From: Acidothermus sp. | GTDB taxonomy: Bacteria > Actinomycetota > Actinomycetes > Acidothermales > Acidothermaceae | NCBI GenBank assembly: GCA_023512015.1 | Contig: JAIMAI010000010.1 | Location: forward strand, 1 to 64,000 | Reading direction: 5' to 3' | Length of the DNA stretch: 64,000 nt | Shown here: piece after piece, positions 25,470 through 39,259 of the stretch | How positions within the stretch are numbered: the stretch's first letter is position 1 | How the letters are laid out: every line of letters starts with the position of its first letter | Position numbers and translations under genes: made by a program | The notes under the pieces: generated by a model | What the model was told of the DNA's origin: nothing | Databases searched by the model: none | The model's input: the letters and a program-made list of their open reading frames with translations, nothing else

Positions 25470-27962
25470 TTAGACTCTTCGCCGCGCTTGACTGTACACG
25501 GCCGCAGCAACTAAGATCACTAGACCTTGGAACAGATACTGCCACGTCTGGCTCAGGTTGAGAAACACCGTGCTATTGAGCATCTCAACAATGAGCGCCG
25601 CTCCCAGCAAGCTTCCGACGAAGGTGCCGCGCCCTCCTAAAAGGGACGTCCCTCCGAGAACGACCGCACTGATGCTGCTAAGGGTGTAGCCGACACCTTG
25701 CGACGCGTCGCCTACTCCGAGCTGAGCAAGGAGGACGACGCCGCCCAGGAGAACGAGTAGGGAACCGAACACGTAAGCGCTCACGACCGTGGCGCCTACT
25801 CGCACACCCAGGCGCCTCGTCGATTCGATGTCCGAACCGACACCTCTGAGCACCATTCCGAGCCTGCTTCCACGAAGTGCGAGCTCCATCACGATGGTCA
25901 AGACGAGCAGCACGATAAACACGACAGGAACCGCGCCCACGGTATGCTTGATCGGTCCGGTGATCGAACTCGCGATGTAACCCCCTGGTGAGCTCCTCAG
26001 GAGGAATCCCAGTCCTTGGAGCGCAATGTAGGTCCCCAGCGTCGCAGCCACAGGTGTGAAACGTGCACCCCTGATCAGGCCACCATTCACTAGGCCCGTA
26101 CCCGCCGCTGCTACGACCATTAGAACGAAGCCGAGTATCACAGAGCCTACGGAGAAGCCTTCCGTCAGGAAGAAGGATCCGACTACCACTACGAACCCGG
26201 CCAACGGACCAACGGATAGATCGATACCGCCGGTCATGAGCACCGCCGTCTGGCCTGCCGCAATGAATCCGAGTGCTGCCAGCGACATCAAGAGTGAGGT
26301 GAGATTGAAGGGTTCTAGGAAACGATGATTCCTCCCGAAGACAACGGCTCCAAGTACCACGATCGCGAGACTTAGGACGAAGACCGGCGCGTAGTCGCCT
26401 TCTAGGAATCGCCGCAGCCGAGTCGCGCCGGAAGCTCGGCCGCGCGCGCTGCTTGTCGCAGCGTGCCCGGTCGCCCGAAGCGCAGACGTCACGATGCGCT
26501 CCTCGGTAACATCGTCACCGCGCAGGACGTCTATTACCGAGCCTCGAGAGATCACCATAACCGTATCGCAAAGACCCTCGATCTCCTTTGCATCTGACGA
26601 TGCCACCACGACTAGGACGCCCTCGTCGGCTAGCTGGCGCAGAAGCTGGTAGATCTCGGCGCGAGCGCCGACGTCCACACCTTGTGTTGGCTCATCCGCA
26701 ACCAGCATCGCCGGCTTTGCGAGCAACGCACGCGCGAAGACGGCCTTCTGCTGGTTCCCACCCGAGAGCGCCTCGATGGGCGCGTCGGTCGAGGGAGCAC
26801 GGATCGCCAGCACACTCATGACTTCGAGCAGAGCTTCCCGCTCTTGCCGTCTCGAGACCAAACCCCGGCTCTCGATCCGCCCTAACGCCGCAAGTGTGAC
26901 GTTCTCGCGAACAGAAAGTCCGTTGAAGACACCCTCGGCCTTTCGATCCGGTGGTATGAAGGCACACAGCTGACGACGCCTCCGGGCGGAGCAGCGCTCA
27001 CCGTTGATGACGACCGTGCCGCGAGACGGACCAATGCCGGCAAGCGCCCTGAGGATCTCACTCTGTCCGTTGCCCACTATCCCGAAGAGACCGACAATCT
27101 CGCCCCGTGCCATTGAAAAGGACACGTTCGAGAAGCGCGGTCCCGAGAGCGCTTCAACGGATAAGGCCGTCTCCGTGCTCTCGTCTGCGATTGCTGCACG
27201 CTTGGGTGGGAACGTCGACGCGAAGTCTCGTCCGACAATGAGCGATAGCAGCTGAGCGTCGGTAATTCGGTCGACCGCGAAAGTTCCGCGCAGACGTCCG
27301 TCACGAAGGACGGTCACAACATCGGCAATCTCCCGTACCTCTGCGAGTCGATGCGTTATGTAGACCACCGCAGTCCCACGAGCCGCCGCCTCGCGCACCA
27401 AGGCGAACAACCGCTCGGTGGCGTCAGGACCCAGTGGAGCTGTCGGCTCGTCCAATATCAGCAGCGCTGGCTTGACGGCGAAGGCCTTCGCGAGTTCGAT
27501 GAGATGCCGTTCTGCGAGATCAAGAGCGCCGACTCTGTCCTTCGGATGGCATGTCGCGCCGACGACACTCAGGAGCTCGCGAGCTTTGGACCCTGTGCGC
27601 GTCCCATCGTCGAAGAGTGCGGGGAGTGCGACCCGAAGATTCTCCTCGACGGTCAGGTCGGGAAGCAACGCGGGATGCTGATGTACGACGGCGATGCCGA
27701 GAGCAGAGGCATGACTCGGCGTGAGATGGGGGACCTCTTTCCCGTCATAAAGGATACGGCCCATCGATGGCTGCAGAATACCGCCCGCTATATTCACCAA
27801 GGTCGATTTGCCGGCGCCATTCTCACCGAGAAGGGCGTGAACCTCGCCAGGTCGGATATCGAGCGTGACATCCGACAGCGCCGTCACGCCACCGAAGGTC
27901 TTCGTGATGCCCTCGAGCCGCAGTAGCGGTTCGACTGCGACCGTCGTGACCTCATCACTCAT
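25470..27962 (-). CDS. Fused ribose-type ABC importer: two ATP-binding cassettes plus permease in one chain
   Basis: 830 aa. Cassette 1 (about 10-235): GENGAGKSTLVNI, LDEPTAPLG, HRLAEVREIAD, with a degenerate signature. Cassette 2 (about 250-490): degenerate P-loop GIVGNGQSEIL, PPDRKAEGVF, signature ALSGGNQQKAVFARAL, VADEPTQGVDVG. After a basic linker (about 500-525) comes a complete RbsC-like permease with about 10 helices, including GQTAVLMTGGIDLSVGPLAG and VVLGGTSLLGGRGTFVGS. Normally RbsA (about 500 aa) and RbsC (about 320 aa) are separate. ATG 27962 is taken as the start, with AGGAG upstream. A second free permease is encoded at 29329, so the importer may have two different permease halves. 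Confidence 0.88.
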   Translation of the reverse strand: MSDEVTTVAVEPLLRLEGITKTFGGVTALSDVTLDIRPGEVHALLGENGAGKSTLVNIAGGILQPSMGRILYDGKEVPHLTPSHASALGIAVVHQHPALLPDLTVEENLRVALPALFDDGTRTGSKARELLSVVGATCHPKDRVGALDLAERHLIELAKAFAVKPALLILDEPTAPLGPDATERLFALVREAAARGTAVVYITHRLAEVREIADVVTVLRDGRLRGTFAVDRITDAQLLSLIVGRDFASTFPPKRAAIADESTETALSVEALSGPRFSNVSFSMARGEIVGLFGIVGNGQSEILRALAGIGPSRGTVVINGERCSARRRRQLCAFIPPDRKAEGVFNGLSVRENVTLAALGRIESRGLVSRRQEREALLEVMSVLAIRAPSTDAPIEALSGGNQQKAVFARALLAKPAMLVADEPTQGVDVGARAEIYQLLRQLADEGVLVVVASSDAKEIEGLCDTVMVISRGSVIDVLRGDDVTEERIVTSALRATGHAATSSARGRASGATRLRRFLEGDYAPVFVLSLAIVVLGAVVFGRNHRFLEPFNLTSLLMSLAALGFIAAGQTAVLMTGGIDLSVGPLAGFVVVVGSFFLTEGFSVGSVILGFVLMVVAAAGTGLVNGGLIRGARFTPVAATLGTYIALQGLGFLLRSSPGGYIASSITGPIKHTVGAVPVVFIVLLVLTIVMELALRGSRLGMVLRGVGSDIESTRRLGVRVGATVVSAYVFGSLLVLLGGVVLLAQLGVGDASQGVGYTLSSISAVVLGGTSLLGGRGTFVGSLLGAALIVEMLNSTVFLNLSQTWQYLFQGLVILVAAAVYSQARRRV

Positions 27963-28019
27963 GCCGATAGGTCTCCTGCTCCCGGGAATCATTGATGTTC
28001 TCGGTCCCACGGAGCGGGC

Positions 28020-28053
28020 CGGTTGGCCTTGTCCGCCCTTTGGAGGCCAACCG
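28020..28053 (-). promoter_or_regulatory. Intercistronic stem-loop between binding-protein and ATPase genes
   Basis: CGGTTGGCC and GGCCAACCG form a perfect 9-bp stem with a 16-base loop, in the 135-bp gap after the substrate-binding-protein gene. Stem-loops at this position in other importer operons stabilise or attenuate the transcript so that more binding protein than membrane components is made. No T-run is seen, so it is read as a processing or stability element rather than a full terminator. Confidence 0.5.
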
Positions 28054-28097
28054 ACCCACTTCGTGGTCCATCATCCTTCCTCAAGGCTCGGAAGGAA

Positions 28098-29273
28098 TTA
28101 CTTCAGTAACTTGGCCTGCTCGTCACCGGGCAATTCAGCCGACAGATAGACATCGGGGGGTAGATCTCTTCTGCATGTAACGGGATGCGGCTTACCCGTT
28201 ACCGAATTCTCGAAGATCGGCCCCACGAAGTTCTTCTGTGTCGGAGTCTTTCCGCCCGAGGCCAGGGCGACGGCCCAGTCGATGGCAAGGCGTACATTGT
28301 CATTCTCGGTGGAAATCGTGAAGAGTTTGAAGTCAGGATTCTTTGCCTTGTGATCCTCATAGAAGCACGCCAGCGCGTTGCCGTCTGAAGTCGCGAGTGC
28401 CGGTATCGAACGACCCTGCTTCTCGAACTCGGGAAGAGCACCAACCAGAGACGGACCGAAGTCCGAGACGATCGCATCGATCTTCGGGTATTTCGCAATG
28501 GCGGCACTCAAGACCCGCTGCGTCAAGGCCGGATCCCAGTTCGTGACCTCGAACGGTTGCTGACCGATGAACTTGAATTTGCTTGGATCGAGTACCGACT
28601 TCATACCTTTCAGTTCATCAAGGCCCTGGCTGTTACCTGCGGGACCGGAGAGGAACAAGATGTTGCCGCCCTGGGGGAGCACCTGGGTAAGCCACTGCGC
28701 CCAGTGAACCCCATCAGCTACAAAGTCGGTACCGATGAAGACGTTGTAATCCTTGCCGTCGGTCCCGCCGGGAAAGACGCGATACGGCACCGTCACCACG
28801 CCAGCCTTGTATGCACTCTGAAGAGCCGGCAGGATCGCCTTACCTGCATCGGGGAAGACCACAAGCGCGTTGACACCCTTCGCCACCATGGCCTGAATGT
28901 CGGAGATCGCTTTCTGTGTGTTCCCCTGCCCGTCGGCGTAGTAATACGCCTCGACACTCGGGCACTTGGACGCCTCATCCTGCGCGGAGGCACGCGTCAC
29001 GATTCGCCAGCTGTTATCCCCGAAGCCATCGGTCAACGCTAGCTTGATCTTCTTCGGGCCGCACCAGCTCGGCACACCGGATGCGCCGCCACTACTTGCT
29101 TGAGCACCACCGCTTGTGCCCGCCGACGCGGCTGGTCCCCCAGACTGCCCGTTACCGGCAGCTGTGGACGACGTCCCGGACGACGAAGTGCCACTACTGC
29201 ATCCAGCTATGACTGCAGCTAGGCTGACGCCCACCAGGACCGGTCGCAGTCGATGTACGAGTCTTGCCATCAC
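28098..29273 (-). CDS. Sugar ABC transporter substrate-binding lipoprotein (RbsB/Periplasmic_BP_4 type)
   Basis: 391 aa. Signal peptide with lipobox VIAGC (Cys25), then a low-complexity Ser/Thr/Gly/Ala linker of about 45 residues that tethers the domain to the membrane. The mature part has the type I binding-protein pattern: KIKLALTDGFGDNSWRIVTRASAQDEA, QAMVAKGVNALVVFPDAG, NVFIGTDFVADGVHWAQWL, LFLSGPAGNSQGLDELKGM, DAIVSDFGPSL and ALATSDGN. It should capture the substrate for the fused ATPase-permease and the separate permease on either side. The ligand cannot be deduced. Confidence 0.9.
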   Translation of the reverse strand: MMARLVHRLRPVLVGVSLAAVIAGCSSGTSSSGTSSTAAGNGQSGGPAASAGTSGGAQASSGGASGVPSWCGPKKIKLALTDGFGDNSWRIVTRASAQDEASKCPSVEAYYYADGQGNTQKAISDIQAMVAKGVNALVVFPDAGKAILPALQSAYKAGVVTVPYRVFPGGTDGKDYNVFIGTDFVADGVHWAQWLTQVLPQGGNILFLSGPAGNSQGLDELKGMKSVLDPSKFKFIGQQPFEVTNWDPALTQRVLSAAIAKYPKIDAIVSDFGPSLVGALPEFEKQGRSIPALATSDGNALACFYEDHKAKNPDFKLFTISTENDNVRLAIDWAVALASGGKTPTQKNFVGPIFENSVTGKPHPVTCRRDLPPDVYLSAELPGDEQAKLLK

Positions 29274-29328
29274 TCTCTAGCCTCCTTTTTCTGACATGGC
29301 TGCCTGACAATCGGCGATCTAGTCGTCG

Positions 29329-30339
29329 TTAGGTTTCTGCCGACCTCGTTCGCCTTCTTCGGACCAGGGCTCTCAGCTCTGACCAGGGAATGGTGTACAG
29401 CGCCACGCCTACCGCGAACGCTACGGCTTGCGTCAAAGTCTGGACCGCATAACTTGCCCCGAGTGCCAGAACGAGCTGCTCGAGCTGGGTGAGAAAGAGC
29501 GCGGCAAGCGCGGACTCGACAAGATACCCCCTACCACCCAGCAGGGACGTACCACCGAGCACAACGGCGGCGACTGATGACAGCAGATAGGTATCACCTT
29601 GAAATGCGGATGGCTTGTTGATGATACCGGCAAGCAGTACCGCTCCTACCCAATAGAGCACTTGGGCACCGACATACGCCATTGCTACATGCCGCTGCAC
29701 ATTGATGTTGACGATCCGAGCGGCACGGGGATTCGCTCCGACTGCTTCGAATCGGCGCCCTGATACGGTCCGCTTGACGATGAGAGTCACGACTACAAGA
29801 ACGACGACAGCGACGTAGATCGAATTGGGGACTCCGAGCAAGGTACCCCCGGCAATATGTGCCATCAAGCTGGTCGTTTGGCGTGGTGTGCCCCCAGAGA
29901 TCCCGAGAACTACGGCATACAGCAATGCGTTGGTCCCGAGAGTCGCGACGATTGCATTCATCCGCAGCAGAGCTACTAGAATGCCATTCAGGACTCCCGC
30001 AAGTACTGCAGCGAGAAGGGCAAGCGCAATTGCAGGTAGGAGCCGTGCGTTGTCGCCGTAGGCCTCATGAGAGACGATCACTACCCCGAGGGAGATGGCA
30101 CCCGCAACGGAGAGGTCGATACCGCCTTGCATGACCACGAGTGTTTGGCCTAACGCAACAATCGCAAGCACCGCAGCGAATGGAAGAGCGCCCTGAAGTG
30201 CTCCCCAGCTCACGCTGCTGGGAGCGAACAGCAGCCCTGCCAGCAAGACCGCAGCGAGCGCGATGATCATCGTGGTGAGGCCGCGTGAGGCTCGCACCCT
30301 TGCACGGATAGCTCGGAGAGGGAGCTGTTCTTCCGCCAC
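29329..30339 (-). CDS. Ribose-type ABC transporter permease (RbsC-like)
   Basis: 336 aa with about ten hydrophobic segments. Family motifs: GQTLVVMQGGIDLSVAGAISLG, GVLNGILVALLRMNAIVATLGT, GRRFEAVGANPRAARIVNI and VVLGGTSLLGGRGYLVES. It parallels the permease half of the fused protein at 25470 but is clearly a different sequence, so a heterodimeric membrane domain is likely. GTG 30339 is preferred over GTG 30354 because GGGAGGGCCA stands directly before it. First gene after the promoter at 30411-30439. Confidence 0.88.
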   Translation of the reverse strand: MAEEQLPLRAIRARVRASRGLTTMIIALAAVLLAGLLFAPSSVSWGALQGALPFAAVLAIVALGQTLVVMQGGIDLSVAGAISLGVVIVSHEAYGDNARLLPAIALALLAAVLAGVLNGILVALLRMNAIVATLGTNALLYAVVLGISGGTPRQTTSLMAHIAGGTLLGVPNSIYVAVVVLVVVTLIVKRTVSGRRFEAVGANPRAARIVNINVQRHVAMAYVGAQVLYWVGAVLLAGIINKPSAFQGDTYLLSSVAAVVLGGTSLLGGRGYLVESALAALFLTQLEQLVLALGASYAVQTLTQAVAFAVGVALYTIPWSELRALVRRRRTRSAET

Positions 30340-30410
30340 TGGCCCTCCCTTCACTGGCTGGTCCTCTACTCCGGCAAAGGTGTCAGGCTCGGGCGCCTGC
30401 GTTTGACGAC

Positions 30411-31750: not shown

Positions 31751-32731
31751 TCAGAGGGACGCCGACGAAACGATATGCACCTTGACCTGCGAGCGATCGT
31801 TCTGCACAGCGTCGATTGCCCTCGTAGCATCCGCCAATGGGAATTGACTGGTGACAATGGGGCGTAGGTCCAGTCCACTCTGCTCAAGGAATCGCAAGGT
31901 ACGCTCCCACACGCCTGGTGATCCGACGATTCCTCGTATTTGCAGTTCTTTGGCCTGGATGAGTCCCAGGCGAGCGGGTATCCGCTCGCCGATGTTGATG
32001 CCGATGCATACGACACGGCCTCCGTAGGCCGCCACTTCGAACGCTTGGGTGAGCGCCCCTGCCTTGCCACTCGCCTCGAATACCACCGTGGCGCCCGCTC
32101 CGTGGGTCAGGTCGAGAACTGCCTCGGTCAGCTCACGTGCCTCCGGATCCAGGACCGTTTCGGCCCCCAATCGTGTCGCCAACTCGCCACGCTTGGGGTC
32201 CGGCTCGACCACCAACACGCGACATCCTCGTGCCCGGCAAGCGGCGACGACGCCCAAGCCGATCGGACCCGCGCCGAAAACCACGACGGTATCGCTCGCG
32301 TCGGGGTGATCTGCTCTGAGCGTGGCGTAATACCCACAGCTGAACGGCTCGACAAGCGCACCCTGAGTCCAGTCCAGACTCTCCGGCAGCTTGTGCAGCC
32401 ATGCTTCCTTGGCAACAAAGAACTCGGCTGCAGCACCACTGATGCTGAAGCCGAAATGATCCCGACCTATCACGCATTCGCCCACTACCCGGTCACCTTC
32501 TCGAAGACTCCTCACGTTGCGACCGGTTGCCACGATCACGCCACTCCATTCGTGACCTGGAATGATCGGGAATTCGATCGGGATGATGTAGCGGCCCGCC
32601 AGCAGCTCGAGGTCGGAGTGACAGATACCGACCGCTCGCGTCGCCACCAGGACCTCATCGTCCGCTATGGACGGGATTGGGATCTCGTCTACCTCGCAAC
32701 GACCGGGGTTTACGAAACGCAATGCCAACAT
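31751..32731 (-). CDS. MDR-family dehydrogenase lacking the structural-zinc lobe
   Basis: 326 aa. The catalytic site is retained (AVGICHSDLELL, GHEWSGVIVATG, and Glu in GALVEPFSCGYYATL), as is the NAD(P) motif VFGAGPIGLGVVAACRARG. After GDRVVGECVIGRDHFGFSISGAAAEFFV the four-cysteine structural zinc loop is missing, shortening the protein by about 20 residues relative to its neighbours. MDR enzymes without this zinc are known among sorbose/threonine-type and quinone-reductase branches. ATG 32731 has AGGTGGG upstream. Third MDR enzyme in this operon. Confidence 0.84.
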   Translation of the reverse strand: MLALRFVNPGRCEVDEIPIPSIADDEVLVATRAVGICHSDLELLAGRYIIPIEFPIIPGHEWSGVIVATGRNVRSLREGDRVVGECVIGRDHFGFSISGAAAEFFVAKEAWLHKLPESLDWTQGALVEPFSCGYYATLRADHPDASDTVVVFGAGPIGLGVVAACRARGCRVLVVEPDPKRGELATRLGAETVLDPEARELTEAVLDLTHGAGATVVFEASGKAGALTQAFEVAAYGGRVVCIGINIGERIPARLGLIQAKELQIRGIVGSPGVWERTLRFLEQSGLDLRPIVTSQFPLADATRAIDAVQNDRSQVKVHIVSSASL

Positions 32732-32845
32732 CGCACCCACCTACAAGTCAGAGCTCGAACGGGCCGACGCGACTAGTCAACGGCGCATCGGCGGCAGCGT
32801 CATGCCACGAAGTCACCATACCGAGTGGAGTCCGAGAGCGCCGTG

Positions 32846-33631
32846 TCATACGAGTACCATCCCTCCGTCAACCATGAAGACCTGCCCTGTCACACAATCG
32901 GACTCCGAGGAAGCCAGGAACGTTGCGATACCGACGAGTTCCTCCGGCTGAACCGGACGCCCAAGCAAGCTCCCACCCGCGAAATTCTTCAGCGCTGTAC
33001 CTGGCTGCTCACTCTCACCGATCTCGACGAAATCCGTATCGAGCTGCTTCCACAGCGGTGTGTCGACCGCGCCGGGAGCGAACGCATTACAGGTGATACC
33101 GTATGGCGCCAATGCGCGTGCCGCCGCCTGCGTCAACGCGTTGACGGCGAACTTGCTCGCCGAATACGGAGCAAAGCTCGGATAGCCTTGTCGTCCCGCG
33201 ATTGACGAGGTATTGATGATCTTACCACGACGAGAGGGAATCATGCGTTTCGCCGCCTCCTGGATCCCAATGAGGGTACCGAGCGCATTCACACGCATGA
33301 TCATGTTCCAATTCTCCTCGGTCACCTCCAGAAACGGCATGGGCTTGTTCACGCCGGCATTGTTGAACACCACATCCAATCGCCCGACGTCGGAGACAAA
33401 GGCATCCAATGCTCGGGAGACCTCTCTGCGCTCACTGACATCCACGACGAGCGGTAGGGCACGACCACCGTCTGCCTCGATCAACGCGAGAGTAGCTTGA
33501 AGAGCCTCTTGATCCCGATCAGCAAGGCCCACATATGCACCTTCACGTGCCAGCCCTTGCGCAATAGCGCGGCCGATACCTTGCCCCGCTCCTGTGACGA
33601 CAATGCCAAGCCCTGCAAGTCTGTCGACCAT
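32846..33631 (-). CDS. Short-chain dehydrogenase/reductase (classical SDR)
   Basis: 261 aa. The cofactor motif TGAGQGIGRAIA, then NNAGV, the catalytic Ser in INTSSIAGRQGYPSFAPYSASKFAVNAL (Ser, Tyr and Lys all present) and the C-terminal SDCVTGQVFMVDGG are complete. Asp in GLADRD after beta-2 suggests NAD preference. The closest recognisable types are diacetyl/butanediol reductases and sugar or polyol SDRs. GGAGGCTACG precedes the ATG. It lies between the lipoyl-domain gene and the third MDR gene on the same strand. Confidence 0.88.
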   Translation of the reverse strand: MVDRLAGLGIVVTGAGQGIGRAIAQGLAREGAYVGLADRDQEALQATLALIEADGGRALPLVVDVSERREVSRALDAFVSDVGRLDVVFNNAGVNKPMPFLEVTEENWNMIMRVNALGTLIGIQEAAKRMIPSRRGKIINTSSIAGRQGYPSFAPYSASKFAVNALTQAAARALAPYGITCNAFAPGAVDTPLWKQLDTDFVEIGESEQPGTALKNFAGGSLLGRPVQPEELVGIATFLASSESDCVTGQVFMVDGGMVLV

Positions 33632-33796
33632 CGTAGCCTCCGACCGTTGGGAGAACCTTCGTACTCTCCATACCCGCTCTTCTCGTCATTAGATGACACA
33701 CAACAGAACGCGTAGTAAGCGAGCCAACTCGCCACTGGCCGCCACCCTCAGCTCCGCCGACGTACCCTCGGCGCTCTGCCGACGTACCCTCGGCCT

Positions 33797-34027
33797 TCAC
33801 TCGATCAGTGCTATGACAGTACCCACCGCTACTTCTTCACCCGCCTCAAATCGGACTTCTTTCAGCACGCCTGTTGCTTGTGCTGGGACCTCGACATCCA
33901 CCTTGTCGCTGGAAACCTCGAGGAGCGGCTCATCGGCATGTACGTGATCACCAACCGCTTTGAGCCATGCCTTGATGGTTCCGGTTTGAACGGTCTCGCC
34001 GAGCTGTGGCATCTTCACCTCGAACAC
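33797..34027 (-). CDS. Stand-alone lipoyl-domain protein (E2 arm without catalytic core)
   Basis: 76 aa from GTG 34027 (GGAGGGACCT upstream); ATG 34039 or 34018 are alternatives. The whole protein is one biotinyl/lipoyl domain: VKMPQLGETVQTGTIKAWLKAVGDHV, then the lipoylation motif LEVSSDKVDVEVPA with Lys42, then GVLKEVRFEAGEEVAVGTVIALIE and stop. An E2 acyltransferase would continue with an E1/E3-binding domain and a 230-residue core; neither follows, and the downstream gap is too short. It comes directly after E1alpha and E1beta, so it should accept the acyl group from that E1. No lipoamide dehydrogenase is in the window. Confidence 0.85.
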   Translation of the reverse strand: MFEVKMPQLGETVQTGTIKAWLKAVGDHVHADEPLLEVSSDKVDVEVPAQATGVLKEVRFEAGEEVAVGTVIALIE

Positions 34028-34072
34028 AGGTCCCTCCATCGTCCATTCATCACCGTCTAAGCAGCCCAATCC

Positions 34073-35053
34073 TCAGGACGCCAGGTGCTTCTCGACCGTG
34101 TCCACGATGCGTTCGACACTGGGAAGGGCCGCGTCCTCGAGCACGTCCGCAGCCGGCAATGGAACATGCGGAGTCGTGATTCGGATGGGCGCGGCCTTGA
34201 GGTCGTCCCACGCTTCTTCGACGACAATCGAGAGGATTTCAGCTCCCCAGCCACAGAGACGTGGGTTCTCCTCAACCGTGAACAACCGACCAGTTGCACG
34301 CACGCTGTCCAGTAAGGTAGTGACATCCAGAGGGACGAGCGACCTCACATCGACAACCGTCAACTCGATGCCACGCTCACGAGCGAGTCGGTCGGCGGCT
34401 GCAAGCGACCGTGGAACCATCGCCCCCAGGGAGAGGACCGTGGCGTCCTCGCCCTCTCTTCGCACAACCGCTTTGCCCAACTCGTCGACGAGCTCTCCCT
34501 CAGGCACCTCCTCTCGGACGGCGTACAGGGCCTTGTGTTCCAAAACGACGACCGGATCTGGATCACGGATCGCCGCGGCGGTCAAGCCTACGACGTCACG
34601 CGGGGTCGACGGCGCTACCACCTTGAGTCCTGGAATCATCATGACCCAGTTCTCGACGCTCTGTGAATGTTGCGCTCCGAAACGAACTCCCCCACCGTTC
34701 GCCGTCCGAATGACCAACGGGACCGATATCTGTCCGTTCGTCATGTAGCGCGTCTTGGCCACTTGATTAGCGATCTGATCCCAACAAACAGCGAAGAAGT
34801 CAGCAAACATGATCTCCGCTACCGGTCGGAGGCCATTCATCGCAGCGCCCAACGCGGCACCAATAATGGCCTGCTCCGCGATAGGAGTATCGAGAACGCG
34901 CGACGACCCGAACTGGTCCAACAGGCCTGCGGTGGCCTTGAAGACGCCGCCAGCGGCCGCCACATCCTCACCAATGAGGACCACTTTAGGATCACGGCTC
35001 ATCTCTTGGGCAAGAGCACGAGCAACTGCCTCTCGATAACTCAAGATCGCCAT
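34073..35053 (-). CDS. 2-oxoacid/acetoin dehydrogenase E1 component, beta subunit
   Basis: 326 aa, transketolase-like pyrimidine-binding domain plus C-terminal domain. Recognisable blocks: MAILSYREAVARALAQEMSRDPKVVLIGEDV, the ThDP-activating Glu region TPIAEQAIIGAALGAAMNGLRPVAEIMFADF, GGGVRFGAQHSQSVENW and VVDVRSLVPLDVTTLLDSV. This is the PdhB/AcoB/BkdA2 type. It overlaps E1alpha by 13 bp. GGGAG precedes the ATG. Whether the substrate is pyruvate, a branched oxoacid or acetoin cannot be settled from motifs alone. Confidence 0.9.
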   Translation of the reverse strand: MAILSYREAVARALAQEMSRDPKVVLIGEDVAAAGGVFKATAGLLDQFGSSRVLDTPIAEQAIIGAALGAAMNGLRPVAEIMFADFFAVCWDQIANQVAKTRYMTNGQISVPLVIRTANGGGVRFGAQHSQSVENWVMMIPGLKVVAPSTPRDVVGLTAAAIRDPDPVVVLEHKALYAVREEVPEGELVDELGKAVVRREGEDATVLSLGAMVPRSLAAADRLARERGIELTVVDVRSLVPLDVTTLLDSVRATGRLFTVEENPRLCGWGAEILSIVVEEAWDDLKAAPIRITTPHVPLPAADVLEDAALPSVERIVDTVEKHLAS

Positions 35054-36069
35054 GATGCACTCCCGTCTGCCCAGAGGTTCGTCTCGACGAGGCTGATCTC
35101 TGGCGGCGGAGCGCTTCGCGCCGCTTCCACGGCGCCGTCCACCTCGGCGGTAGCCTTGGCCTCTATCTCATCCAGCTCGGCCCTAGAGAAGCCGCTCGAG
35201 ACTAGGTAATCGGCGTAGCACGCGAGCGGATCACGCGCCAGCCACGCCTCGACCTCTTCCTTGGGACGGTAAGTGCCTGGGTCGGTGCGCGAGTGTCCGC
35301 TCTGACGATACGTCAGAGCTTCGATCAGAACGGGTCCGCCGCCCTCTCGACATTCGGCAAGCGACCGTCGTGCGACGTCGAACACCTCGGCGACGTCATT
35401 GCCGTCCACCATCGTCGCAGAAAGCCCGTATGCTGAAGCGCGATCGGCGAGTGGATGGCGCACAGGCGTGACGGCCGAGATTGCCGTGTATTCCATGTAC
35501 AAATTGTTCTCGCACACGAACACGACGGGTACGCGCCATACTGATGCAAGGCTCAGGGCTTCGTGGAAGGCACCAATGTTGGTTGTGCCGTCACCAAAGA
35601 AGCAAACAACCACCTGCTTGGTGCCGCGCGACCGAGCTGCCCAGGCGGCACCGACGGCAACCGGAAGATGGGCTCCGACAATCGCATACGAACCCATCAT
35701 CCCGTGCTCAACACTGGTCAAGTGCATGGAGCCGCCCTTCCCAGCCATCAATCCTGTGGCGCGGCCCATCAGCTCGCCCATAACCGCACTCATCGGTACC
35801 CCACGGGCAAGAGTGTGAGCGTGACCACGGTACGTGGCGAATGTGAGATCAGTCGGTTCCATCGCCCGGGCGAAACCGGCGGCAACCGCTTCTTGCCCGA
35901 GAGACAGATGCGAAGTTCCCTTCACCAACCCTTGCAAGAACAGGTCGTAAGCGCGTCGCTCGAAGAGGCGTAGTCGCACCATGAGTTCGAAGAGTGCGAG
36001 CTCATGACCATTAATCTCTCCCTTGAACGCGGGCCGCGATGGCAATCCAAGATCGGTAGGAAGAAGCAA
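35041..36069 (-). CDS. 2-oxoacid/acetoin dehydrogenase E1 component, alpha subunit
   Basis: 342 aa. The ThDP-binding motif is intact: GDGTTNIGAFHEALSLASVWRVPVVFVCENN. Also HLSLGQEAVAAGF, ATYRGHAHTLARG and the phosphorylation-loop-like YRQSGHSRTDPGTYR are typical of AcoA/PdhA. TTG 36069 is taken as start because AACGGAGGTTGATA precedes it; no better ATG or GTG lies near. First gene of the minus-strand run of twelve genes. The short AcoA-like length and diol-dehydrogenase neighbours favour an acyloin (acetoin-type) substrate, but this is inference. Confidence 0.9.
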   Translation of the reverse strand: MLLPTDLGLPSRPAFKGEINGHELALFELMVRLRLFERRAYDLFLQGLVKGTSHLSLGQEAVAAGFARAMEPTDLTFATYRGHAHTLARGVPMSAVMGELMGRATGLMAGKGGSMHLTSVEHGMMGSYAIVGAHLPVAVGAAWAARSRGTKQVVVCFFGDGTTNIGAFHEALSLASVWRVPVVFVCENNLYMEYTAISAVTPVRHPLADRASAYGLSATMVDGNDVAEVFDVARRSLAECREGGGPVLIEALTYRQSGHSRTDPGTYRPKEEVEAWLARDPLACYADYLVSSGFSRAELDEIEAKATAEVDGAVEAARSAPPPEISLVETNLWADGSASWRS

Positions 36070-36118
36070 TATCAACCTCCGTTACGGTTGTACAGTCTCG
36101 ACCGAGGACTAGGTGTAC

Positions 36119-36220: not shown

Positions 36221-37111
36221 GTGCGAGTAGCGATCTTAGGCCTGGGCGCCATCGGAAGCGCGATCACTGAGCGCCTACACGCGGAAGGCGCAGAGCTGAC
36301 CATATGGAACCGCACCCGCGATCGTGCCACGCAGATCGGCGCACGCCTGGGGGTGTCTGTGGCAGACACGCCAGCACATGCTGTCGCCGACACGGCGATA
36401 GCCCTCACAGCTCTCGCCGACCGCGCCGCCTGCGAAGCCGTCTTCTCGGGTGCGGACGGCATTCTGGCGGGAGCGCATCCGGGCCTCGTCGTCTGCGACC
36501 TCAGCACAGTAGAGCCATCCGTCTCTCGAAGTCTGGCGCCAGTCCTTCGTGCGAAAGGCGCGGACGTCATCGATACCCCGATCTCGGGAAGCACCGTGCT
36601 CGCACGTCGCGGGGAGTTGACCATCATGATCGGTGGTGACGATGAAGCCATCGCTCGAGCACGGCCTGTCTTGGAACTCCTGGGTCGGCAACTTTTCCAT
36701 GTCGGCCCCGTCGGGAGTGGCGCTGCGATGAAGCTGGCTGTGAACACAGTTCTCCACGGGCTCAACGAAGCTCTGGCAGAGGGACTCGTGCTTGCTGAAA
36801 GTGCCGGGATACCCCGCTCTCTTGCATATGACATCCTCGCGAAGAGTGCCGTGGGAGCGCCATTTGTCCACTACAAACGTCGCAACTTCGAAGATCCCGA
36901 TAACGCCAGCGTGGACTTCCGCTTGGCCTTGGTCTGCAAGGATCTGAGGCTGATCCGCGAGTTTGCAGAACAGACCGGAGTACTGTTACCTCAGCTAGAC
37001 ACCAACCTCAGAGTCGCACAAAGAGCCTGTGAACAGATGGGCGACCGCGACATGTCTACGCTGGCCGTCTATCTGCGAAAACACAGCAAGCAGCTCGCAG
37101 ACGAGCCCTAA
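36221..37111 (+). CDS. NAD(P)-dependent 3-hydroxyisobutyrate dehydrogenase-family protein
   Basis: 296 aa beta-hydroxyacid dehydrogenase. N-terminal Rossmann motif VAILGLGAIGSAITERL; CDLSTVEPSVSRSL; substrate loop DTPISGSTVLARRGELTIMIGGD; catalytic Lys in GSGAAMKLAVNTVLHGLNEALAEG; and the all-helical C-terminal domain with KDLRLIREFAEQTG. GTG start with GGAG upstream. It is divergent from the E1alpha operon and converges on the regulator with overlapping stop codons. Likely oxidises or reduces a hydroxyacid (hydroxyisobutyrate, tartronate semialdehyde or similar) arising in the same pathway. Confidence 0.85.
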   Translation: MRVAILGLGAIGSAITERLHAEGAELTIWNRTRDRATQIGARLGVSVADTPAHAVADTAIALTALADRAACEAVFSGADGILAGAHPGLVVCDLSTVEPSVSRSLAPVLRAKGADVIDTPISGSTVLARRGELTIMIGGDDEAIARARPVLELLGRQLFHVGPVGSGAAMKLAVNTVLHGLNEALAEGLVLAESAGIPRSLAYDILAKSAVGAPFVHYKRRNFEDPDNASVDFRLALVCKDLRLIREFAEQTGVLLPQLDTNLRVAQRACEQMGDRDMSTLAVYLRKHSKQLADEP

Positions 37112-37758
37112 TTCTGCTCGGTCACAAACCAAACGCCGACGGCCGGCTGCTTCCCATCGTTCCGCAGCCGATGAGGTGTAGTGGAGTTGAACGATACAGC
37201 GTCGCCGGGCCGGAGCCGATACTCGTCGAAGCCCAATGTGAGGATCAACTCACCACTGATCAAATAGCCGTACTCTGCGCCGTGATGTCGCATGAGGCCA
37301 CCGTTGCTCGAGGACGTACCACCCGGGTGATAGGTGATCAGTAGGAACTCGACGTGGCTGTGGGGCAAACGGCCGAGCCACTCCCACGTCACTCCGGAAT
37401 CAAGGTGAAGCACCTTGCGATCCTCTGGAGTGACCACCGGGCCCAGCCGCTCGTGTCGCTCGTCCCGAGCGGCGCGAGCCGGCGGCGAGAGATCCATCTC
37501 GACAGAATCTCGCGACGGCCTGGGCCTCGCAAGTAGCTCCTTGGACGGCTGCTCGAAGACCTCCTCCATCGGCAGACCCAACGCCGTGGTAATCGCGTAG
37601 AGCGTACTCACCGATGGTTGACTCTTCCCTGTCTCGATTTGAGAAAGCAGACTCGCCGAGACTCCGAGATCGCGAGCAAGACTTCTCAAACTAATGCCCT
37701 TCCGCAACCGCGCACGTCGCAGGCGCGCGCCGACCTGCGGCAGCTGAGCGACGATCAC
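37108..37758 (-). CDS. XRE-family regulator with C-terminal cupin sensor domain
   Basis: 216 aa. An N-terminal helix-turn-helix (about 9-65: GARLRRARLRKGISLRSLARDLGVSASLLSQIETGKSQPSVSTLY) is joined to a cupin_2 barrel (about 125-210: MRHHGAEYGYLISGELILTLGFDEYRLRPGDAVSFNSTTPHRLRN) that should bind a small ligand. GTG 37758 follows AGGAGGTCAG. Regulators of this type usually control the neighbouring catabolic genes in response to an intermediate. The gap to the divergent M24 gene contains an inverted repeat over the -35 box. Confidence 0.9.
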   Translation of the reverse strand: MIVAQLPQVGARLRRARLRKGISLRSLARDLGVSASLLSQIETGKSQPSVSTLYAITTALGLPMEEVFEQPSKELLARPRPSRDSVEMDLSPPARAARDERHERLGPVVTPEDRKVLHLDSGVTWEWLGRLPHSHVEFLLITYHPGGTSSSNGGLMRHHGAEYGYLISGELILTLGFDEYRLRPGDAVSFNSTTPHRLRNDGKQPAVGVWFVTEQN

Positions 37759-37888: not shown

Positions 37889-39259
37889 GTGACCATTCGT
37901 ACCTACGGGCCAAACGCAGTGGATTGGGAGCTCCGGATCGACCTTGAACGCCTGCGACACGATCGACTCGCCCGTTTACGCGACACAATGGAGAGGACCG
38001 AGCTAGGGGCCCTGCTGGCGTTCGACTTTTCCAACATTCGCTACATGACTGCGACTCACATAGGCACCTGGGCCATCGATAAATTCATCCGATTCGCTCT
38101 GCTCATGCGCGGAGCCGAACCGATCGTCTGGGACTTCGGTTCCGCGGCTCGACACCATCAATTGTTCAATCCCTGGCTCGACGGACCACGACGCGCTCGC
38201 GCGGGCATTTCGACTCTGCGCGGCGCCTTCCATCCGGATGCGGGCATTGCCTCCGAGCTTGCGCGCAAGATCGAGTTTGAGTTGCGTGAACATGGTCTCG
38301 CCGACGCTCCGCTCGGCGTCGACGTCGTCGAGATGCCGGTGCTCTCGGCCCTCGAAGCCCGAGGCATCCGCGTCGTCGACGGTCAACAGGTCTTTCTCGA
38401 GGCCCGCCGTATCAAGACGCCAGACGAAATCGCTCTCCTTACTCACGCTTGCGCAATGGTCGATGCCGCTTATGAAGAGCTCTATGCCTTCTTGCGACCC
38501 GGCGTTCGGGAAAATGAGTGTGTCGGACTGGTCAGTAAAACGCTCTACGACCTGGGTAGCGAGTTCGTAGAGGGAGTAAACGCTATTTCCGGCGAACGAT
38601 GCTCACCCCATCCGCACGTCTACAGTGACCGCATCATTCGCCCGGGCGACCCAGCGTTTTTTGATATCCTGCATAGCCACCTCGGGTACAGAACGTGCTA
38701 TTACCGCACCTTCGCCGTCGGCAGTGCCTCCGTCGCAATGCGCGATGCCTACAAGCGATGCCGCGAATACATGGACGCTGCGATTGCCATGGTCAAGCCC
38801 GGTGTGACCACCGCGGACATCGTCGAGTTGTGGCCAAAGGCTCAGGAGTTCGGCTTCCCGGACGAGGAAGCGGCGTTCGCCCTTCAGTACGGCCACGGTG
38901 TCGGACTCTCGATCTGGGAGAAGCCCATCTTCAGTCGGCTGGTCTCACTCGAACACCCAGAAGTAATCGAAGAAGGAATGGTCTTCGCTCTCGAGACCTA
39001 CTGGCCGGCGTCCGACGGCTGGTCCGCTGCACGAATCGAGGAAGAAGTCGTGGTGACGGCGGACGGATGCGAGGTGATCACCAAGTTCCCCGCCGAGGAA
39101 CTCTTGGTCGCCGGGCGTCGCTACTGGACGATCAACCAACCGCTGCCCACCCTTCGCGAGCCCGAGTCGCATCGCAACACCGCAGTCGGACGCGGTAGCT
39201 CGCCATCTGCAGGCGTCAAGAGTGCCGACGTCGCTACATCAGCTCAGCCTTCACGGTGA
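37889..39259 (+). CDS. M24 (pita-bread fold) metallopeptidase-family protein with altered metal site
   Basis: 456 aa, similar in layout to Xaa-Pro dipeptidase, creatinase and DddP-like enzymes: creatinase-type N-domain (1-175) and M24 C-domain (185-400). Expected ligands are Asp259 (FFDILHSHLGY), a second Asp 11 residues on which here is Cys270 (GYRTCYYRTF), His336 (YGHGVGLSIWEKP), Glu369 (ALETYWP) and Glu384 (RIEEE). The Asp-to-Cys change suggests a mononuclear or non-peptidase enzyme. The tail (about 410-456) is low complexity. AGGAGGG precedes the GTG start. Peptidase, creatinase-type amidinohydrolase or lyase activity is possible. Confidence 0.82.
   Translation: MTIRTYGPNAVDWELRIDLERLRHDRLARLRDTMERTELGALLAFDFSNIRYMTATHIGTWAIDKFIRFALLMRGAEPIVWDFGSAARHHQLFNPWLDGPRRARAGISTLRGAFHPDAGIASELARKIEFELREHGLADAPLGVDVVEMPVLSALEARGIRVVDGQQVFLEARRIKTPDEIALLTHACAMVDAAYEELYAFLRPGVRENECVGLVSKTLYDLGSEFVEGVNAISGERCSPHPHVYSDRIIRPGDPAFFDILHSHLGYRTCYYRTFAVGSASVAMRDAYKRCREYMDAAIAMVKPGVTTADIVELWPKAQEFGFPDEEAAFALQYGHGVGLSIWEKPIFSRLVSLEHPEVIEEGMVFALETYWPASDGWSAARIEEEVVVTADGCEVITKFPAEELLVAGRRYWTINQPLPTLREPESHRNTAVGRGSSPSAGVKSADVATSAQPSR

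Follow-up and report, generated by a model that had tools for sequence, protein, structure and literature searches.

An operon in the 64-kb window analyzed here (the whole stretch of DNA, C2:1-64000 of a MAG that is 87% complete and lies in 75 contigs) probably encodes a dissociated, or split-E2, 2-oxoacid/acyloin dehydrogenase, in which a free lipoyl protein would deliver the acyl group in trans to an acyltransferase core whose gene lies elsewhere. This is the most economical reading of the operon. All of its components belong to known families; what differs is that the lipoyl domain is unlinked to give a free carrier, whether or not a free core accompanies it.

The operon comprises three complete genes on the minus strand in the order E1alpha-E1beta-lipoyl. 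The first (35041..36075) encodes the E1alpha subunit of a ThDP-dependent 2-oxoacid/acyloin dehydrogenase (PF00676 E1_dh, E 8.8e-73). Its start codon is uncertain, with homology beginning near 36051, and it scores 334 bits against TIGR03182, below the cut-off of 394. It carries the motifs GDGTTN and GHSRTDP, which are conserved throughout the E1 family. The second gene (34073..35053) encodes E1beta, with PF02779 Transket_pyr and PF02780 Transketolase_C domains and a score of 353 bits against NF006667, above cut-off; its AQHSQ motif conserves the His used in reductive acylation. A sequence-only reading of this DNA had described the E1 pair as intact, and the three Pfam matches together with the catalytic motifs confirm a heterotetrameric-type E1 that possesses both the ThDP motif and the acylation His. 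The two E1 genes share an overlap of 13 nt, and the ATG (34039) of the third gene follows E1beta after a gap of 33 nt.

The third gene (33797..34039) encodes a free-standing lipoyl protein of 80 aa (PF00364 Biotin_lipoyl, E 1e-22), which is complete and covers positions 2-73 of the 73 positions of the model. Counting from the ATG at 34039, the predicted lipoyl lysine is Lys46 in an SSDKVD motif; an alternative in-frame TTG start at 34069 would give a protein of 90 aa. The earlier description of a lone lipoyl domain with this motif stands, but its length of 76 aa and its assignment of the site to Lys42 do not. The top lipoyl models for the protein are actinobacterial SucB/AceF E2 domains, with 94.7 bits for the lipoyl part of SucB_Actino, and the closest relative among solved structures in the PDB is a PDH E2. 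Since the profile search gave no match to GCV_H (PF01597) and E2 lipoyl models scored best, the protein is read as an E2-type lipoyl domain and not as an H-protein; these profile matches and the DKVD sequence rule out both an H-protein and a biotin carrier.

The lipoyl domain is not covalently joined to an acyltransferase core, as its ORF stops at 33797, and the operon consists of E1alpha, E1beta, and a lipoyl protein of the E2 type (about 80 aa), with neither a subunit-binding domain nor a core nor an E3. An AcoC-type E2 (lipoyl plus transferase) and AcoL were likewise absent from the operon. An HMM search of the whole 64 kb in all six frames detected no E2 core (PF00198), leaving core-free flanks of about 34 kb downstream and about 28 kb upstream of the E1-lipoyl genes. 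The sequence-only reading had asked whether a frameshift might hide an E2 core after the lipoyl gene; the six-frame search rules this out, and the next gene is that of an SDR dehydrogenase, whose start (33631) lies 165 nt downstream of the lipoyl stop.

The statement that no E2 core or E3 is present holds for the operon and, for the core, for the entire window, but not for the genome, where profile searches located four PF00198 cores, all outside the window, and an E3. Three of the cores belong to full E2s. Those on C33 (447-aa frame) and C9 (407 aa) each lie beside their own E1beta, and that on C74 is a SucB/AceF-like E2 (527-aa frame) directly after an E3-like protein of 470 aa. The fourth, on C43, is part of a KGD/OdhA-type fusion of about 1290 aa without a lipoyl domain. 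A full-length E2 elsewhere, which had been named as an outcome that would count against the sequence-only reading, therefore does exist three times over, but none of the cores is visibly paired with the window E1. LipA and one protein of the BPL/LplA/LipB family were also detected in the genome. Collectively, the predicted parts for converting an acyl-lipoyl group to acyl-CoA and for re-oxidizing the carrier are present in the genome, outside the operon. Two further candidates for free lipoyl proteins in this genome were rejected. A short match on C24 has a biotin-type ESMKM motif and follows a carboxylase, and a match at one end of contig C65 most likely belongs to a full E2 truncated where the contig stops, as its E1 groups with that of L049, which has a full E2. 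As a separate observation, no AceE-type E1 (PDH_E1_M) was matched in the genome despite the AceF/SucB-like E2 next to E3 and the KGD/OdhA-type protein, so that a classical AceE-AceF PDH could not be shown.

From these parts we infer the substrate, that the carrier is lipoylated, that it hands over its acyl group in trans, and which core receives it, as follows. First, E1alpha-beta with ThDP would decarboxylate or cleave the substrate and reductively acylate the lipoyl group that the free 80-aa carrier bears at Lys46. Second, the acyl-dihydrolipoyl carrier would diffuse to an acyltransferase core encoded elsewhere, yielding acyl-CoA; the likeliest cores are the SucB/AceF-like E2 beside E3 on C74 or, on C43, the E2o domain of the KGD/OdhA-type protein, which has no lipoyl domain. 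Third, the shared E3 on C74 would re-oxidize the carrier. The substrate may be an alpha-hydroxyketone or a 2-oxoacid derived from a sugar or polyol that is taken up by the adjacent ABC importer and oxidized by the SDR and zinc dehydrogenases.

The suggestion of such a substrate comes from the genes that follow the operon on the same strand. The SDR dehydrogenase (32846..33631), a probable pathway partner, has as its closest curated model an acetoin reductase/2,3-butanediol dehydrogenase (TIGR02415), against which it scores 249.6 bits, below the cut-off of 304. Two zinc-type polyol/alcohol dehydrogenases (31751..32740, PF00107/PF08240; 30678..31745, PF08240/PF00107) are also probable pathway partners. 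Beyond them, open frames of a ribose/xylose-type ABC importer (25470..30354) encode a permease (29329-30354), an xylF/rbsB-like binding protein (28098-29273), and a fused ATPase-permease (25470-28010).

Compared to canonical E1alpha-beta/E2/E3 complexes (PDH, BCKDH, and Aco), the operon shares the E1 subunits, the E2-type lipoyl domain, and the gene order E1alpha-E1beta-lipoyl; it differs in that the lipoyl domain is a separate 80-aa protein and that no subunit-binding domain, core, or E3 accompanies it. The window E1beta is about 50% identical to those of two E1-E2-E3 operons, in Rhodococcus PD04 and Klebsiella, the former lying near a gene annotated as acetoin reductase. Compared to the Aco system, the window has neither the AcoC-type E2 nor AcoL, and its SDR neighbor resembles acetoin reductase below cut-off. 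Other small free-standing lipoyl carriers are known: GcvH and LbpA are H-protein-type and serve glycine cleavage and Hdr-like sulfur oxidation (PMC6067878). The window protein, in contrast, matches E2-type models and not GCV_H, and its partners are different.

The use of a lipoyl group in trans has a precedent in actinobacterial OdhA/KGD, in which the E1 and acyltransferase rely on lipoyl groups of another protein (PMC10415282, PMC7568260), as proposed for the window; a protein of this type is the one encoded on C43. In the OdhA/KGD case the lipoyl domain resides on a full-length E2 (AceF), whereas the window operon encodes it as a free protein alongside the E1. Together with the split operons described below, this precedent lends good comparative support to the earlier suggestion that the lipoyl protein may shuttle the acyl group to a core encoded elsewhere. 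There is no need to postulate a special new acceptor.

The window is not alone in having this layout, and comparison of gene orders indicates that many unrelated bacteria have a complex broken up in the same way. A PLSDB search with the lipoyl proteins yielded annotated counterparts on complete plasmids; the gene table being incomplete, cores were sought in the DNA itself. The triplets that the sequence-only reading had proposed to look for, in which E1alpha and E1beta accompany a free lipoyl protein of 76-82 aa with no nearby core in the stretches covered, were found in Sinosporangium, Rubrobacter, Sphingobium, Croceicoccus, Thermus, and Azospirillum. In Rubrobacter indicoceani, E1alpha, E1beta, and a 79-aa lipoyl protein are followed by sugar ABC genes, which the window importer resembles, with a zinc dehydrogenase upstream, so that the surroundings are of the same kind as those in the window. 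Sphingobium RAC03 and Croceicoccus have SDRs, a cupin, M24, E1alpha, E1beta, and a 79-aa lipoyl protein. The operons of Thermus thermophilus TF24, with a lipoyl protein of 82 aa, and Azospirillum B510, with one of 76 aa, are lipoyl-only. A candidate from Caballeronia (H102) was rejected as a free lipoyl protein because its lipoyl domain is only the start of a 601-aa frame. Where a genome has a short lipoyl gene, several E2 cores are encoded elsewhere in it. With a layout this widespread and recurrent, an ordinary E2-type lipoyl domain, and E2 cores and E3 in the genome, the earlier notion of a new minimal E1-lipoyl system is overstated.

In other operons the E2 is split with both of its parts retained. 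Rhodococcus erythropolis BG43 has E1alpha, E1beta, a bare core of 238 aa, and a lipoyl protein of 80 aa. Shinella WSC3-e has E1alpha, E1beta, an 80-aa lipoyl protein, glpD, an aldolase, a bare core of 225 aa, and its own lipA. Phaeobacter has M24, E1alpha, E1beta, a 428-aa dilipoyl protein, SSADH, a core of 292 aa, and E3. Pfam searches found no lipoyl domains in these cores and no cores in the lipoyl proteins. These operons resemble the window in combining E1alpha-E1beta with a separate lipoyl protein; they differ in that the separate core lies in their cluster, and their E1beta is only 43-44% identical to that of the window. They show that lipoyl domain and core can stay together in a pathway without being one polypeptide. 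In the E1beta tree, Rubrobacter (lipoyl only) and Shinella (split) are sisters with support of 100/100, which places the lipoyl-only and split states close to each other in evolution, and the short-lipoyl label changes at least five times on starred branches. Related free lipoyl genes evolve under purifying selection, with pairwise dN/dS of about 0.11-0.19 in four of five pairs and about 0.5 in one.

On Agrobacterium plasmid pAt15955 (L209:3524-7007), a fused E1alpha-beta (821-aa frame) and a free 77-aa lipoyl protein are accompanied by a separate alpha/beta hydrolase, which follows the lipoyl gene and matches the AcoC transferase domain at 159 bits. A lipA gene of its own and genes for a sugar ABC importer lie close to this locus. 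This arrangement, and several lipoyl-only operons with no core over the 10-20 kb examined, would fit an alternative in which a dedicated non-PF00198 partner (a hydrolase, a transferase, or a local dehydrogenase) takes the acyl group and the acyl-CoA of a shared E2 is not the product. We regard this alternative as unlikely for the window. No alpha/beta hydrolase was present among the ten window neighbors profiled, and the AcoC-like hydrolase is itself a separated acyltransferase and thus supports transfer to CoA in trans. The dehydrogenases known from the families found next to the operon use alcohols and not thioesters, which counts against a dehydrogenase as acceptor, and the earlier suggestion of a different local acceptor gained no specific support.

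Within the E1 family itself, what varies is the E2. In the genome collection, 80 loci have an E1beta 68-74% identical to that of the window, and 28 of 397 sampled Actinomycetota genomes, its own included, have an E1beta match at E<=1e-105. The state of the E2 was counted at 112 loci with an E1beta score >375 bits, where the counts describe sampled loci and not frequency in nature, "no core nearby" refers to the stretches fetched, and loci beyond the classes given were cut by contig ends. A full E2 is present in the same stretch at 34 loci, mostly of Pseudomonadota, and neither lipoyl domain nor core, despite adequate flanks, at 45, mostly of Actinomycetota. A free short lipoyl gene occurs at four, the window among them; at one locus (L095) a lipoyl domain continues in frame into E1beta, and another (L186) has a lipoyl-less E2 core. 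Close relatives of the window E1 thus exhibit all states: full E2, core without lipoyl, lipoyl without core, and neither. Relatives with an E2, with a short lipoyl gene, or with neither do not differ in their ThDP, phospholoop, and acylation-His motifs.

At the Sinosporangium loci (L058 and L059) and L112, E1alpha and E1beta flank the short lipoyl gene, and no core is nearby. Their lipoyl proteins are 71-84% alike, and that of the window is only 56-58% like them and is encoded after E1beta, which suggests that its position is probably of separate origin. The closest E1 relatives (L060 and L081) have no lipoyl gene nearby, so the window's lipoyl gene stands alone in its clade. It has no close relative either: a search of 297 genomes of the class for the lipoyl protein at E<=1e-24 gave a match in none but the source genome.

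Several of these relatives deserve separate mention. The protein of L186 (L186:4622-6079) is E2-like, with a core but no lipoyl domain, and its gene adjoins that of an E1 belonging to the same family. A subunit-binding-like motif, read by eye from the sequence, occurs in three to four copies ahead of its core, and a search of that genome gave no free lipoyl gene. In L095 (L095:5755-6010), the lipoyl domain runs in frame into E1beta through a linker of about eight residues, uninterrupted by a stop. It was not accepted as a firm case of fusion, as it comes from one MAG and an SD-like GGAGG and a GTG precede E1beta; it could be a one-base artefact and was used as weak support. L046 and L047 are lipoyl-less E1 clusters with M24, E1alpha, E1beta, and an amidohydrolase, to which L047 adds a two-cupin protein, gene sets pointing to an unfamiliar catabolic pathway.

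Several points count against the split-E2 reading: none of the cores can be assigned to this E1, the lipoyl gene is isolated among its relatives, the MAG is incomplete, and most actinobacterial relatives have an E1 with neither lipoyl domain nor core within several kb. The last of these implies that the E1 may not strictly need its own carrier. The lipoyl gene could then be a relic or optional extra, with the E1 acylating the lipoyl domains of full-length E2s in trans or releasing an aldehyde to an adjacent ALDH. The 45 loci with neither part, of which 16 have an SSADH-like ALDH, and the lipoyl-less E2 core of L186 are in line with such a role. We nevertheless hold it to be improbable. The lipoyl ORF is complete with its motif, purifying selection acts on related free lipoyl genes, and the acylation His is kept even at loci without a lipoyl gene, contrary to what a lipoyl-independent E1 would suggest. 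Furthermore, no ALDH lies beside the window E1.

It is very unlikely that a dedicated separate E2 core exists and is simply missing from the incomplete MAG, which would make this an ordinary split-E2 system. The completeness and fragmentation of the assembly leave room for a missing core, and the separate core of Shinella lies 2.7 kb from its lipoyl gene; however, the flanks of the window operon are core-free over far longer distances, and the complete plasmid of Rubrobacter, which is sister to Shinella, has no core after the E1-lipoyl genes. An assembly or sequencing artefact, in which a frameshift or chimera removed the E2 core, is extremely improbable even though this is MAG sequence and the operon was seen once in the genus, as no frame of the window holds a core and the stop falls where the lipoyl domain naturally ends, just as it does in free lipoyl proteins encoded by isolates and complete plasmids.

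The efficiency of 2-oxoacid dehydrogenases is, by the standard account, due to lipoyl arms covalently tethered to a large E2 core. Operons that encode E1, lipoyl domain, and core as separate proteins suggest that tethering is dispensable, and their recurrence suggests that the textbook dehydrogenase complexes can work in pieces common to several pathways. More tentatively, many bacteria may possess a fully dissociated E2, in which discrete lipoyl carriers serve pathway-specific E1s and feed interchangeable, shared, or even non-PF00198 acyltransferases, although we would not yet favor this wider generalization. If it is true, lipoyl proteins act like acyl carrier proteins and not as tethered swinging arms. 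Shinella, R. erythropolis, Rubrobacter, and Sinosporangium provide gene-defined systems for asking whether pathways share acyl-lipoyl proteins in trans, a question that applies to actinobacterial OdhA too. For annotation, these results offer a likely role for many small "biotin/lipoyl-containing proteins" adjoining E1 genes. In the open-access literature searched, no description was found of the E1 plus free-standing lipoyl layout or of the split-E2 operons of R. erythropolis BG43, Shinella WSC3-e, and Phaeobacter.

On the other side of the operon, the window contains genes of a recurrent, partly conserved neighborhood of this E1 family, which comprises an M24 hydrolase (DddP/creatinase-like), a beta-hydroxyacid dehydrogenase, and, at many loci, an SSADH-like aldehyde dehydrogenase. 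A beta-hydroxyacid dehydrogenase resembling tartronate-semialdehyde reductase (36221..37111, plus strand; PF03446/PF14833) belongs to cluster c5, found near the E1 at 24 loci. It is followed by an XRE-cupin regulator (37108..37758, minus strand; PF01381/PF07883) and by an M24 (creatinase/DddP-like) hydrolase or lyase (37889..39259, plus strand; PF00557, E 4e-39) of cluster c3, found near the E1 at 33 loci. The M24 protein scores 135 bits against the DddP model, whose cut-off is 600. It matches the M24 proteins of L044-L047, L193, and L194 at about 810-830 bits and those at loci with a closer E1beta at about 500-560 bits; its nearest relatives thus lie at loci other than those with the closest E1beta, and the cluster looks mosaic. 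Between the lipoyl stop and the SDR gene, two direct-repeat copies of a 17-bp near-palindrome (GCCGAGGGTACGTCGGC) occur 22 bp apart at 33756-33794 and are possible operators or RNA hairpins.
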